In this document: positions 25,037-46,218 of the stretch, piece after piece
How the letters are laid out: every line of letters starts with the position of its first letter
How positions within the stretch are numbered: position 1 is the first letter of the stretch
Source: Nematocida parisii ERTm1
Lineage: Eukaryota; Microsporidia
Direction of reading: 5' to 3'
Length of the DNA: 64,000 bases
NCBI RefSeq assembly: GCF_000250985.1
Contig: NW_013524647.1
Location: 638,482 to 702,481 of the forward strand
Position numbers and translations under genes: made by a program
The notes under the pieces: model-generated
What the model saw: only the letters and a program-made list of their open reading frames with translations
Database searches by the model: none
What the model was told of the DNA's origin: nothing

Positions 25037-25616
25037 TAAAGAATTATTTATTTTAAGACATAAATAAGTTTATGTAAAAAATAAAATTAAGAAATTCATT
25101 GCCAGATAGAGAGTCAAACAAACCTACTTCAGTGAATTCTTATAGAACATGCAGTAAACATGATTTACTACAGTTAAATTGTTTGTTACTCCTAAAAATC
25201 AATAAAAAGGTTTAAAATAACTGAATTTTTATGTATAACATAATATTTATAATTAATGAAGTAATTAAACTAGTGAATAGTAGTTTATTGGTATAATTTC
25301 AGGATGTATAAACGGTAATTCCTTATAATAGCATGTTTTATAATTTATTATAATTATGTATTAGATGTACTTTATAAAATTATATGATATTTGAATTAAT
25401 TTCTTCCGGTTTTATTCTATCCTGTGGTTTATTTAACCATTTCTTAAATAGAAATTGTAGCTTTTTTATTTTTTTAATTATAGAATATTTTTATTAGCTA
25501 AGAATCAATTGGATATATCCTGTACACATTTATTAATAATAGAAGACTTTTTTTATAAATTATGTCTGACGTACTCACAAAGAGCAATACCATTATCTTA
25601 CCACGCAGCCCAGATA
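25037..25616. other. intergenic, no gene seen
   Basis: AT-rich spacer before the structured repeat element. Nothing else is recognisable. Confidence 0.55.
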
Positions 25617-25910
25617 GAGAAGTGGGTGAATGGGAAGAACTCTTTATTGTTTCTAGGAAGCGGCTTAAGCCTGCATGGGCTCGGAGTATTATGGGCACGA
25701 GGGTGTTAGACCTAGTGCTGAACTTAGCTGTCAATACTTCTCAGAGTTTCCATCTAAATTTGAGGAAGGTGGTCTGGTTAAAAACAGTCAGAAGTTGATA
25801 TACGGACTCATAGATTCTGACCATTTGCTTTGGCGGGATCGCCGCACGAGTCGATGTGCTGGCGGATCGCCCTTGAATCTTATATCTGAGTGACGGCGTC
25901 ACCACAATAT
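25617..25910 (+). repeat. structured ~290-bp element, copy 1
   Basis: A relatively GC-rich island in AT-rich DNA that aligns along most of its length with the reverse complement of 40541-40789. Shared blocks are GTGAATGGG, TCTTTATTG, TAGGAAGCGGC then AAGCC, AGCTGTCAAT, GAGTTTCC, CTGGTTAAA, TGATATAC and a TCACC-type end. Visible foldbacks: GCGGC-TTAA-GCCTGC; a long hairpin at about 25832-25871 (GGCGGGATCGCCGCAC against GTGCTGGCGGATCGCC) absent from copy 2; and GTGAC-GGC-GTCAC near the end. It looks like a structured RNA gene or a small mobile element. Short ORFs across it do not match between copies. Confidence 0.65.
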
Positions 25911-25976
25911 CTATTTATTATTCTATATTATATGGTGGTTTTAATATCCGTATACTATGCAATACACGTAATAATC

Positions 25977-39749: not shown

Positions 39750-39855
39750 CTAATTGTGTACTATATTATTAGGATTTAATAATATTATAGTACCAATAAT
39801 TATAAAAATAATTAATAATATTATGGATATTGTCTTAAAAGTCTTGGATACTTCT
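39711..39855. repeat. 145-bp duplicated gene end, copy 1
   Basis: Identical to 44965-45109 except for one base I can see (39724). It covers the 3' flank and the last 32 sense codons of the gene on the reverse strand, including the whole membrane anchor. Confidence 0.92.
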
Positions 39856-40418
39856 TCTTCTTGTGTAAAAAGTTCTGGTGCATTAATTAAATTTTCTAAC
39901 CCATGTCTAAAAAATTCAGGTACTTCTGCATTATCATATTCTTCATCAGTGGCAGAGCCTTCTGTTCTAGTAATAATTTGGTCTGCTACAGAAGTAGGTA
40001 TAACTGTATTATGCTCTAATACATTAATAATAGTAGACTGATCTGCATGTTCTGATGAAAAATAGAGCTCATCCTTATCAGTGGCTGCTTGGTCTACTTC
40101 ACCATATAACCAGTCTATTATCTCATCTGGAATTGCTTCATCTACAGTTATATCTTTAGTGGCACTCATGTCAGATTCCTCCTTTAATGGTTGTTGCTTA
40201 TATGAAGGATCTAATTGCTCTGCTTGCTGCTGTTCAGTTAGACTGCTATTTATATATTCTTCATGTGCTGTTACTGCAGTTGTCTTATTAATGGTATTAT
40301 ATCCATCTAATAAGATATCTTTAGTAGTAATTTGTTTTTCTGTGCTGGTTTCTGTTGGTTTTACTTCTTCTGTGCTGGTTTTAATTGCTTCTCCTTTTGA
40401 GTTCTGATCACTGTTCAT
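39750..40418 (-). CDS. acidic tail-anchored protein 1
   Basis: 222 residues, not recognised. An acidic Thr/Glu/Gln-rich region (repeated TSTEEVKPTETSTEKQ near the start) is followed by a C-terminal anchor, ISIILLIIFIIIGTIILLNP. The last 32 residues are identical to those of the 404-residue protein at 45004, and the DNA is almost identical there, while the N-terminal parts are unrelated by eye. AAAATTTT precedes the ATG. No signal peptide, so it should face the cytosol or be tail-anchored. Confidence 0.7.
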   Translation of the reverse strand: MNSDQNSKGEAIKTSTEEVKPTETSTEKQITTKDILLDGYNTINKTTAVTAHEEYINSSLTEQQQAEQLDPSYKQQPLKEESDMSATKDITVDEAIPDEIIDWLYGEVDQAATDKDELYFSSEHADQSTIINVLEHNTVIPTSVADQIITRTEGSATDEEYDNAEVPEFFRHGLENLINAPELFTQEEEVSKTFKTISIILLIIFIIIGTIILLNPNNIVHN

Positions 40419-40540: not shown

Positions 40541-40789
40541 TATTTTGAGGTGACACCACCAAAACAAAAGACCGAATCTCTGAATCAGTATATCACCATC
40601 CGATTATTTAACCAGAGATCTTCCCCTAAAAATTGGGGAAACTCGGAGAAGCATTGACAGCTTAACTTTAGCGGCAGGCCTAACTCAGCTGTCCCGGGGA
40701 CTCAGTGTCCGTGCTGGCTTGGGCCGCTTCCTAAATGCAATAAAGACCCCCTCCCCATTCACTCTTTTGGCTACGTAGCAGGGCAGTGG
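40541..40789 (-). repeat. structured ~250-bp element, copy 2
   Basis: The reverse strand aligns with 25617-25910. Shared blocks include GAATGGGGAGG-TCTTTATTG, TTAGGAAGCGGCCCAAGCC, AAGCTGTCAATGCTTCTC, GAGTTTCCCC, CTGGTTAAA, TGATATACTGATTCAGAGAT and a GGTGGTGTCACC foldback at the end. The GCGGC/GCC(N)GC foldback is kept with a CCAA loop instead of TTAA, and the GGGAC/GTCCC-type stem around 40690-40705 differs from copy 1. Base changes in loops with retained pairing suggest a functional RNA. Confidence 0.65.
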
Positions 40790-40793
40790 TGGC

Positions 40794-41226
40794 ATGACTC
40801 CTCATGAGTATGCCAAGTATAATACACTCTGGAGTGTCACAGATGATAAAGCTTCAAATAAATACACTTCAATTAAAAAGGCGTATAAAGAAGTACAGGA
40901 TAAGTATATAAATATGAATAATTATACTGACTGTATTGTACATCAATATTTAATTATTGAAAGTAACCAGATATTGAATATAATTAATAAAAAGAGAACT
41001 ATTCATAAAAGGGATAACTAACCCAGACAGAATAAAATATGGAATAGTCCGAATAATTTAATACTCTGAGGAATCTAGGCAATATAAAGCATAAGTCTGA
41101 AATTATTGAAGAATTCTTAATAGACACGAATAATACACTAGGCAGTAATAATCATATGGTATGATTTACATCTAATCTTATACGTAATAGATATAAGAAA
41201 TCATATCCTAAAGATATTTTAGTATA
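40794..41226 (+). pseudogene. possible decayed gene
   Basis: A 75-codon frame (MTPHEYAKYNTLWSVTDD start) runs to 41021. A second frame then reads KHKSEIIEEFLIDTNN, an in-frame stop, and NLIRNRYKKSYPKDILV before another stop at 41226. The amino acid composition is protein-like, unlike the repeat spacers, but no family is recognised. Confidence 0.35.
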
Positions 41227-44964: not shown

Positions 44965-45109
44965 ATTATATAGTAGTATATGTGTAATAAGTATTATTTA
45001 TTGCTAATTGTGTACTATATTATTAGGATTTAATAATATTATAGTACCAATAATTATAAAAATAATTAATAATATTATGGATATTGTCTTAAAAGTCTTG
45101 GATACTTCT
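44965..45109. repeat. 145-bp duplicated gene end, copy 2
   Basis: Pairs with 39711-39855; one mismatch seen (44978). Contains the last 32 sense codons, stop and 3' flank of the gene on the reverse strand. Confidence 0.92.
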
Positions 45110-46218
45110 GGTTCTGGTTCTGTTTCTTCTTCTTGTTTTATAATAATAAATTCTTCTACTATATCAGATATAACAACACTCTTATTACTTTTTACTTTTT
45201 GTGTAATAAGTTCAGGCATATTAGCCAATTCTTCTTCTGTGACTAATTCTACAACAGGAAATGAACCATCAACGACCGGATCACCACTTACTACATCAAC
45301 GACCGGATCAACTGTACCACCACTTACACCACCACTTACACCATCAACGACCGGATCAACTGTATGACTACTTATACCTGTATTGGCCATATCATATACA
45401 ATATTAGTTACTGTACTACTATTACTGGCCGTATGACTACTTACACCTGTACTACTCATATTATCAGACACTGACTGGTCTACTGCATGTATACCTGACT
45501 GATCTACTGCATGACTGACTGTATTAACTGTATTACTATGTATACCTGACTGATCTACTGCATGACTGACTGCCTCTTCTGGTGTAATAATTACACTATC
45601 AGTAGCTGTCCCTTTTGATATACATGCCTCATCTAGTCTCCTCTCTTCTGCTGCCTCATCTAGTCTTACTCCCTCCATGTCTTCTGCTACTCTTACTCCT
45701 TCCATGTCTTCTTCTGGTGTAATGACTGCTTCTACCCCATCTACTCTTACTTCCTCTTGCTCCTTGTCTTCTGCCTCTTCTTCTGGTGCTCTCTCTTCTT
45801 CTTCAGTAATAGGTGATAATCTGTCATACATTACTTCATTAATTACATCATGTGCACTGTTAAGGAACTCCTTTACACTCCCATTTGAACAGTCTAAGTT
45901 ACTAAAGAAATCTTCAAGATCTTTAAGCGAGGGATCTTCTGGGATTTCTTGATTGAATAAAAAATTTTCATTATTTTTTGTATTTATAGTTTTATCTGAA
46001 GATATTTCCATTTTAGGTAATTCTGATTTTTCATTTAATTCTTGTTTTTGTATGGTTTCTTTGGGTAGACTTGGTTTATGCCGTATTTCTAAGGGTAATT
46101 CACTTGAAGAAGTGGGATTATTTGATGTTTCTGGTTCATTGGTTGGTATTTCTGGTTGATTTACTTCTTTATGCATATTTTTAGATACTTTCTCATTTTG
46201 CTTCTTATCAATATTCAT
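45004..46218 (-). CDS. acidic tail-anchored protein 2 with repeats
   Basis: 404 residues, not recognised. The N-terminal Lys/Glu/Pro part is followed by a very acidic stretch (about 140-205, units like EDMEGVRVAEDMEGVRLDE) and Val/Ser/Gly/Asp tandem repeats (SHAVDQSGIH, VVDGVSGG). The C-terminal anchor and last 32 residues are identical to the protein at 39750. AAAATTTTTAT precedes the ATG. Repeat-unit changes would make it a fast-evolving protein; a cytosol-facing membrane role is inferred from the tail anchor. Confidence 0.7.
   Translation of the reverse strand: MNIDKKQNEKVSKNMHKEVNQPEIPTNEPETSNNPTSSSELPLEIRHKPSLPKETIQKQELNEKSELPKMEISSDKTINTKNNENFLFNQEIPEDPSLKDLEDFFSNLDCSNGSVKEFLNSAHDVINEVMYDRLSPITEEEERAPEEEAEDKEQEEVRVDGVEAVITPEEDMEGVRVAEDMEGVRLDEAAEERRLDEACISKGTATDSVIITPEEAVSHAVDQSGIHSNTVNTVSHAVDQSGIHAVDQSVSDNMSSTGVSSHTASNSSTVTNIVYDMANTGISSHTVDPVVDGVSGGVSGGTVDPVVDVVSGDPVVDGSFPVVELVTEEELANMPELITQKVKSNKSVVISDIVEEFIIIKQEEETEPEPEVSKTFKTISIILLIIFIIIGTIILLNPNNIVHN

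Follow-up and report, generated by a model that had tools for sequence, protein, structure and literature searches.

Two copies of a repeat at the end of a contig

The window—the whole 64,000-nucleotide stretch analysed here, positions 638,482 to 702,481 of NW_013524647.1—is the end of a contig (C2) of Nematocida parisii, a microsporidian that parasitises nematodes and is used as a natural pathogen model in C. elegans. A 1177-aa protein encoded at 12637-16170 matches a hypothetical protein of N. parisii at 100% from end to end, and among its 12 hits all 8 that carry a name are from Nematocida. Genes of the window include those for MCM, EF2, methionyl-tRNA synthetase, eL15, eIF6, and a Nop-domain protein. 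Two further predicted proteins, at 39750-40418 and 45004-46218 (both minus strand), are otherwise different and end in the same hydrophobic C-terminus, EVSKTFKTISIILLIIFIIIGTIILLNPNNIVHN, as members of a membrane-anchored family would. The window also holds two copies of a repeat, the second lying about 130 bp upstream of the 39750-40418 frame. Their features, as we read them, are as follows:

25562-25566, no strand: left target-site duplication of copy 1, ATGTC (flank comparison)
25567-25906, minus strand: copy 1, read as a decayed full-length solo LTR of 340 bp, with the U3 start at 25906 and the U5 end at 25567 (39-copy alignment)
25643-25648, minus strand: putative poly(A) signal AATAAA of copy 1, in the family's most conserved hexamer window (39/39)
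25832-25871, minus strand: GC-rich, hairpin-forming U3 segment of copy 1, an ordinary LTR part
25907-25911, no strand: right target-site duplication of copy 1, ATATC, one mismatch (flank comparison)
40549-40815, plus strand: copy 2, read as a solo LTR without about 70 bp at its U3 end, the low-coordinate end (search and alignment)
40739-40744, plus strand: putative poly(A) signal AATAAA of copy 2 (hexamer windows of the family)

A first-pass annotation of this DNA had aligned 25617-25910 with the reverse complement of 40541-40789 and proposed a new structured RNA or a SINE-like mobile element. The homology itself was borne out by direct comparison (71% over 215 bp, E ~1e-18, against 37 loci). 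The edges of both copies needed revision: copy 1 spans 25567-25906, so that about 50 bp had been missed on the left and the last 4 bases fell within the right target duplication, and copy 2 spans 40549-40815. Copy 1 had further been credited with an extra GC hairpin at 25832-25871, which turned out to be an ordinary LTR segment and no insertion, present at varying identity in 36 of 39 alignment rows; it is absent from copy 2 and from locus L038, where homology stops earlier, and is interrupted by a 12-bp gap in L025. The hairpin of copy 1 thus only looked extra because copy 2 is without its U3 end.

A family of at least 45 loci with fixed-length target duplications

Further copies, for which the first-pass annotation had suggested a search, are indeed present. 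Searches of the window's own genome (3.98 Mb, 11 contigs) recovered at least 45 loci of the ~339-bp repeat as the union of three DNA searches, on contigs C1 to C6 and C8; all locus counts from these searches are lower bounds. As a query, copy 1 found itself and at least 26 other places (27 in total, E down to 5e-47), copy 2 found itself and at least 35 (36 in total, E down to 2e-59), and a third, diverged copy found at least 41 places, with two of these belonging to a single interrupted copy. At that sensitivity, neither of the two window copies, as query, listed the other. No match to copy 1 was found in phage DNA.

Alignment of 39 copies with their flanks revealed abrupt family edges—homology spans TGACGTACTCAC to GTCACCACA, and outside it the sequence is unrelated and mostly AT-rich. 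The LTR copies start with TG in 33 cases and end with CA in 34, and many are bordered by short direct duplications: perfect 5-bp target-site duplications flank 13 of 39 copies, compared with 11 of 1482 cross-pairings of left and right flanks from different copies, and 16 copies have one with at most one mismatch (92/1482 for cross-pairings). Duplications of 4, 6, or 7 bp were perfect in none of the 39. Conversely, 26 copies have no perfect 5-bp duplication, 23 have none even when one mismatch is allowed, and no perfect one was seen at two of six later-found copies, which reach both ends and whose flanks were inspected. LTR retrotransposons typically have a fixed duplication of 4-6 bp, and when fixed 5-bp duplications accompany TG...CA ends, they mark the action of an integrase on an LTR.

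Some copies have flanks in common, on both sides for those at C3:423774 and C1:58886 and on the right for those at C2:458325 and C2:594771, which indicates that segmental duplication, not separate insertion, accounts for a few of the loci. One copy (L064, C2:614990-615790) is split by ~318 bp of unrelated AT-rich sequence; L038 (C1:204.6 kb) has the same LTR part and the same insert, at 90% over 580 bp, and its LTR homology stops exactly where the LTR resumes in L064. We also considered tRNA-gene targeting and rejected it, as the 2 kb around the 45 LTR loci contain none of 53 tRNA genes (2.25 expected) and the median distance from locus to tRNA gene, 35.5 kb, is not below random (29.1 +- 7.0 kb). 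Within 20 kb of contig ends there are 7 of the 45 loci, compared with ~3.7 expected (contigs C9-C11 left out).

A complete element identifies the repeat as an LTR

Four pairs of neighbouring copies among the 39 lie on the same strand within 15 kb of each other, and at only one of these pairs, at 268 kb of contig C3, do the outer flanks match. There, a complete element of 1,775 bp (C3:268028-269802) consists of an LTR, a 1,097-bp interior, and a second LTR. Its two 339-bp LTRs (L013 1529-1867 and 2965-3303) have the same orientation and are identical at 338 of 339 positions. The outer flanks match, reading GATCT on one strand and AGATC on the other, whereas the flanks of each LTR taken alone are unmatched, with 5 and 3 mismatches of 5. 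The other three pairs show 2 to 4 mismatches in the outer five bases. The shared outer duplication and the unmatched inner flanks show that the pair is one LTR-interior-LTR insertion, and two copies flanking one interior with a shared outer duplication identify the repeat as an LTR. The first-pass annotation's alternative of a mobile element is therefore upheld by the 5-bp duplications, the TG...CA ends, and this complete structure.

The interior of the C3 element is single-copy in the genome and has 55% GC; no copy of it was found beside the 43 other LTR loci. A polypurine tract, AGGAGGGGCAGGA, lies directly before the 3' LTR of this one element, and interior features rest on n = 1. When 10 of the 14 stop-to-stop frames of the interior were scanned against Pfam for gag and pol domains, which an element requires for autonomy only, just two sub-threshold matches appeared (E 0.08 and 0.24). 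The interior had no Rfam match up to E 1, and permissive Rfam comparison of the whole locus gave two matches (E 0.98), both within the LTRs; comparison of the interior with plasmid DNA gave none. Nor did we find in the genome an autonomous element with the ~339-bp LTR. The C3 element thus resembles a small retrotransposon without recognised genes, apparently moved in trans.

The sense of the LTR is opposite to the strand on which the first-pass annotation read it: in the correct orientation it runs TGTGGTGACACC...GTGAGTACGTCA. On this strand a TATA-like box, TATTTAA, stands at LTR position 121 in 34 of 39 copies—copy 1 is not among them, its box being degenerate—and AATAAA stands at position 255 in all 39, the most conserved of 334 hexamer windows. 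These are the presumptive promoter and poly(A) signals expected of a U3-R-U5 LTR. Taking the other strand as sense was rejected, as no polypurine tract fits the C3 element that way round. Since the polypurine tract, TATA-like box, and poly(A) signal all fall on the opposite strand, copy 1 has its sense on the minus strand and copy 2 on the plus strand.

One alternative is that the repeat is a MITE, a non-autonomous DNA transposon, and that the C3 pair caught a DNA segment between them as a composite transposon. Short interspersed copies with fixed-length duplications would suit such an origin, as would the single copy, high GC, and missing tRNA primer site of the C3 interior. We nevertheless regard it as very improbable: beyond TG...CA the ends are not inverted repeats (TGACGTACTC vs TGTGGTGACA), the polypurine tract, TATA-like box, and poly(A) signal occupy the positions that an LTR element needs, and a second element, which has an integrase remnant and is described below, shows an exact copy of the junction that follows the 5' LTR. 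We conclude, from the features of the DNA, that the repeat at 25567-25906 is almost certainly a solo LTR, left by a family of small and apparently non-autonomous LTR retrotransposons in N. parisii.

RNA structure does not demand an RNA gene

The first-pass annotation had taken the persistence of hairpins as a sign of constraint on an RNA. A single sequence does not bear this out, with copy 1 folding no better than its dinucleotide shuffles (z -0.89 and -0.97). We also folded an alignment of 37 copies (copy 2 and L038 dropped) and compared it with column-shuffled alignments, which do not preserve the relatedness of the copies. Covariation, which the annotation had wished to see examined over more copies, is at best marginal: the covariation term lies 0.68 and 1.35 SD above the shuffles, and the paired-cell fraction is 0.95 and 0.94, compared with 0.94 in shuffles. 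On the first-pass strand, pairs changed at both positions number 22, compared with 22.1 +- 3.9 in shuffles (mfe z -1.6), whereas on the sense strand they number 32, compared with 18.7 +- 3.8 (mfe z -2.5). The transitions of decay also convert G-C pairs to G-U and A-U pairs. The sense-strand signal is not explained by neutral decay alone, and the LTR RNA may form a real hairpin; the structure data do not demand an RNA gene.

Searches for known RNAs agree with this. At gathering score, cmscan of the window against Rfam returned two tRNAs only; under permissive settings copy 1 had no match up to E 10 and copy 2 had three, at E 2.5 to 6.9, far below the cut-off. ARAGORN found no tRNA, and hence no tRNA-like sequence in the LTR, over 37 copy-bearing loci.

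A dispersed family of structured non-coding RNA genes under structural selection would account for the near-constant length, the GC richness, and the conserved blocks, and it could draw on the sense-strand folding result (mfe z -2.5, with its excess of double-change pairs, 32 vs 18.7 +- 3.8). It is contradicted by the exact 5-bp target duplications and the LTR-interior-LTR element, by the lack of an Rfam match near the cut-off in either copy, by a single-sequence fold at z of about -0.9 with covariation within 1.4 SD of shuffles, and by the drift of old copies towards AT, so we hold it to be exceedingly unlikely. The LTR anatomy and the Rfam results likewise leave the proposed new RNA unsupported. 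As for a SINE, that is, a Pol III transcript moved by a LINE, a short, dispersed repeat without noted coding capacity at 45 or more loci is all that speaks for it, and its probability is negligible given duplications of one fixed length (5 bp), no sign of a tRNA-, 5S-, or 7SL-derived Pol III head by ARAGORN (no tRNA in 37 loci scanned) or by Rfam (no match near the cut-off in either copy), no tail but a CA end in 34 of 39 copies, and two copies that double as direct terminal repeats of one element; fixed duplications, TG...CA ends, and direct terminal repeats together identify an LTR inserted by integrase. The repeat is a real mobile-element family, but not a new RNA, an RNA gene, or a SINE. 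A candidate new RNA is thereby removed, and in its place this compact parasite genome gains a well-defined retrotransposon family.

Recent activity and decay of old copies

The retrotransposon family comprises both young and old copies. Measured against one young copy, those copies that are homologous throughout show 100% to 71% identity (75.7% for copy 1); for L038 (66%) and copy 2 (72%) the stretch compared includes non-homologous tails. A recent burst is apparent: identity to the young copy is 97-100% for 11 of the 39 aligned copies, which are 95-100% identical among themselves, and many of the others are old. One LTR of the C3 element has an exact match in a solo LTR at C2:208 kb, which indicates that the family was recently active.

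As identity to the young copy falls, so does GC, from 0.59 to 0.41. In 34 copies compared with young copy L014 (leaving out L045, L038, both L013 LTRs, and the reference), C>T and G>A predominate among the changes, their direction being approximate since L014 is one real copy and no ancestor. This drift is, to judge by the substitutions, the behaviour of unconstrained DNA in an AT-rich genome, as in neutral decay. The conserved blocks remarked on in the first-pass annotation fit decay combined with shared LTR signals. At CpG sites, C>T affects 132 of 981 positions and G>A 179 of 967, compared with 175 of 2067 and 226 of 2733 at non-CpG sites; changes at CpG are thus ~1.6 and 2.2 times as frequent as elsewhere, which hints at CpG-linked decay in a microsporidian. 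The family could be of use for dating insertions and as strain markers.

A palindromic junction in place of a tRNA primer site

The position after the 5' LTR of the C3 element, where a tRNA primer site, a feature of many but not all LTR retrotransposons, would be sought, showed at most 7 nt of complementarity to 53 tRNAs, and shuffles average 7.1. The tRNA set comprises these 53 scored matches (63 of 160 candidates were scored), and a tRNA may be missing from it. That the test can work is shown by a control element at C1:37.4-41.0 kb, in which the sequence after the left repeat is complementary to 15 nt of one tRNA 3' end, CCA included (the CCA was added in the script).

The first 16 bases after the 5' LTR of the C3 element are TAATGAATTCATTAAT. 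Together with the preceding GTCA they occur exactly twice in the genome, in the C3 element and at C4:143152; at up to 3 mismatches the combination is found at 4 places, compared with 2 for a reversed control. Within the junction the 14-mer TAATGAATTCATTA is a perfect palindrome that forms a weak hairpin (-1.6 kcal/mol). Palindromes of 14 bp are not rare, with 24 in the window, 7 of them containing a G; the notable point is the exact recurrence of this one at the same place in two elements, not the palindrome itself. Known from these two elements, the junction is the only unusual feature of the family.

The second occurrence lies in a decayed element (L059 3653-4500, C4:143152-143999), in which an AATAAA-bearing LTR end terminating in CGTCA is followed by the 16-mer junction and then by a stop-containing integrase remnant. 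Over its last 110 bases this LTR shows no alignment to the present LTR (score 8.0; shuffles 8.6 +- 4.1), and the integrase piece is 23% identical to the C1 integrase over 106 residues. The remnant, a Pfam rve domain beside the second junction copy, is the one source for the putative Ty3/gypsy affiliation of the C3 element.

Two other known modes of priming were tried and rejected. For Tf1-like self-priming, the first 60 nt of the interior have no complementarity of 7 nt or more to the LTR, and the 16-mer at most 5 nt; for the second block of GalEa-like priming, a complementary block in the next 60 nt is at chance level. The GalEa Copia elements of fungi, with their Conserved Hairpin Site, resemble the C3 element in having no tRNA primer site and a palindrome directly after the 5' LTR, as presented in the sections of PMC5445492 that treat this site; by the same sections they differ in that their palindrome is of a 9-bp CTGATCAGT type, whereas the present one is the 14-bp TAATGAATTCATTA, and in possessing the second complementary block that is missing here.

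We tentatively raise the possibility, which we regard as rather doubtful, that the C3 family and the C4:143 kb integrase element start reverse transcription without a tRNA 3' end. The palindrome could then prime via an RNA dimer or a nicked hairpin, as a possible counterpart, by analogy, of the fungal GalEa palindromic site. The palindromic, non-tRNA primer position, in a genome that also contains an element with a normal tRNA primer site, bears in a small but testable way on the priming of some fungal retroelements.

Proposed life cycle and relation to known elements

We infer transcription, a helper, and a primer from an anatomy that can be read directly. Pol II would transcribe the element from its left LTR, and another element, most likely of Ty3/gypsy type, would provide in trans the enzymes for reverse transcription and insertion. 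The interior would then be lost by recombination between the two LTRs, which would leave a solo LTR, and solo LTRs would drift neutrally to the AT-rich composition of the genome. A frame that combines reverse transcriptase, RNase H, and integrase domains does exist in the genome, in the element at C1:37.4-41.0 kb; considered as helper, that element is no obvious partner, as its repeats differ, are ~50 bp long, and are accompanied by a tRNA primer site.

For N. parisii, a table of Parisot et al. 2014 (PMC4202319; as read from its flattened columns) gives 4 LTR families, one Mariner, and one piggyBac, and the microsporidian LTR families detected are described in that source as Ty3/gypsy. The present family is like these in belonging to the LTR retrotransposons of N. 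parisii; according to the methods described there, they were found via coding sequence and reconstructed elements, whereas neither gag nor pol was recognised in the scanned frames of the C3 interior. Neither "solo" nor "nonautonomous" appears in the main text of PMC4202319. Among the papers listed by open-access searches on transposable elements of microsporidia and Nematocida, none has a title or abstract opening that describes this LTR family, which is apparently new as far as these searches reach.

In the portions of PMC6934838 and PMC10886601 that deal with TRIMs, these elements have, like the C3 element, two LTRs around a short interior without recognised genes and a polypurine tract, and, as in the fungal Helenus, 5-bp duplications and solo LTRs; mobilisation in trans is a putative further likeness. 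TRIMs without an identifiable tRNA primer site are reported in the corresponding part of PMC6934838. The size stated there for TRIMs is <1000 bp with 100-250-bp repeats, whereas the C3 element, at 1,775 bp with a 339-bp LTR, is longer. Helenus, as characterised in this literature, has a tRNA-like sequence in its LTR, whereas none was found in the present LTR (37 loci).

Other retroelement frames in the genome

The control element at C1:37.4-41.0 kb (L056 2812-6373, C1:37411-40972) contains a 1146-aa frame with its three domains in Ty3/gypsy order. It is bounded by LTR-like exact repeats of ~49-50 bp with TG...CA ends, which would be unusually short LTRs and which the frame overlaps at both sides, and in addition to its 15-nt tRNA primer site it has a G-tract that precedes the 3' repeat. 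Four further loci (L057 2020-5124, L058 3507-4970, L061 2547-4607 on the minus strand, and L062 2579-3994 on the minus strand) each have a reading frame in which reverse transcriptase and RNase H domains were seen, and no integrase domain. The frame in L058 lies between 216-bp direct repeats (97.7% identical), which seem to include the first codons of an upstream 398-aa frame.
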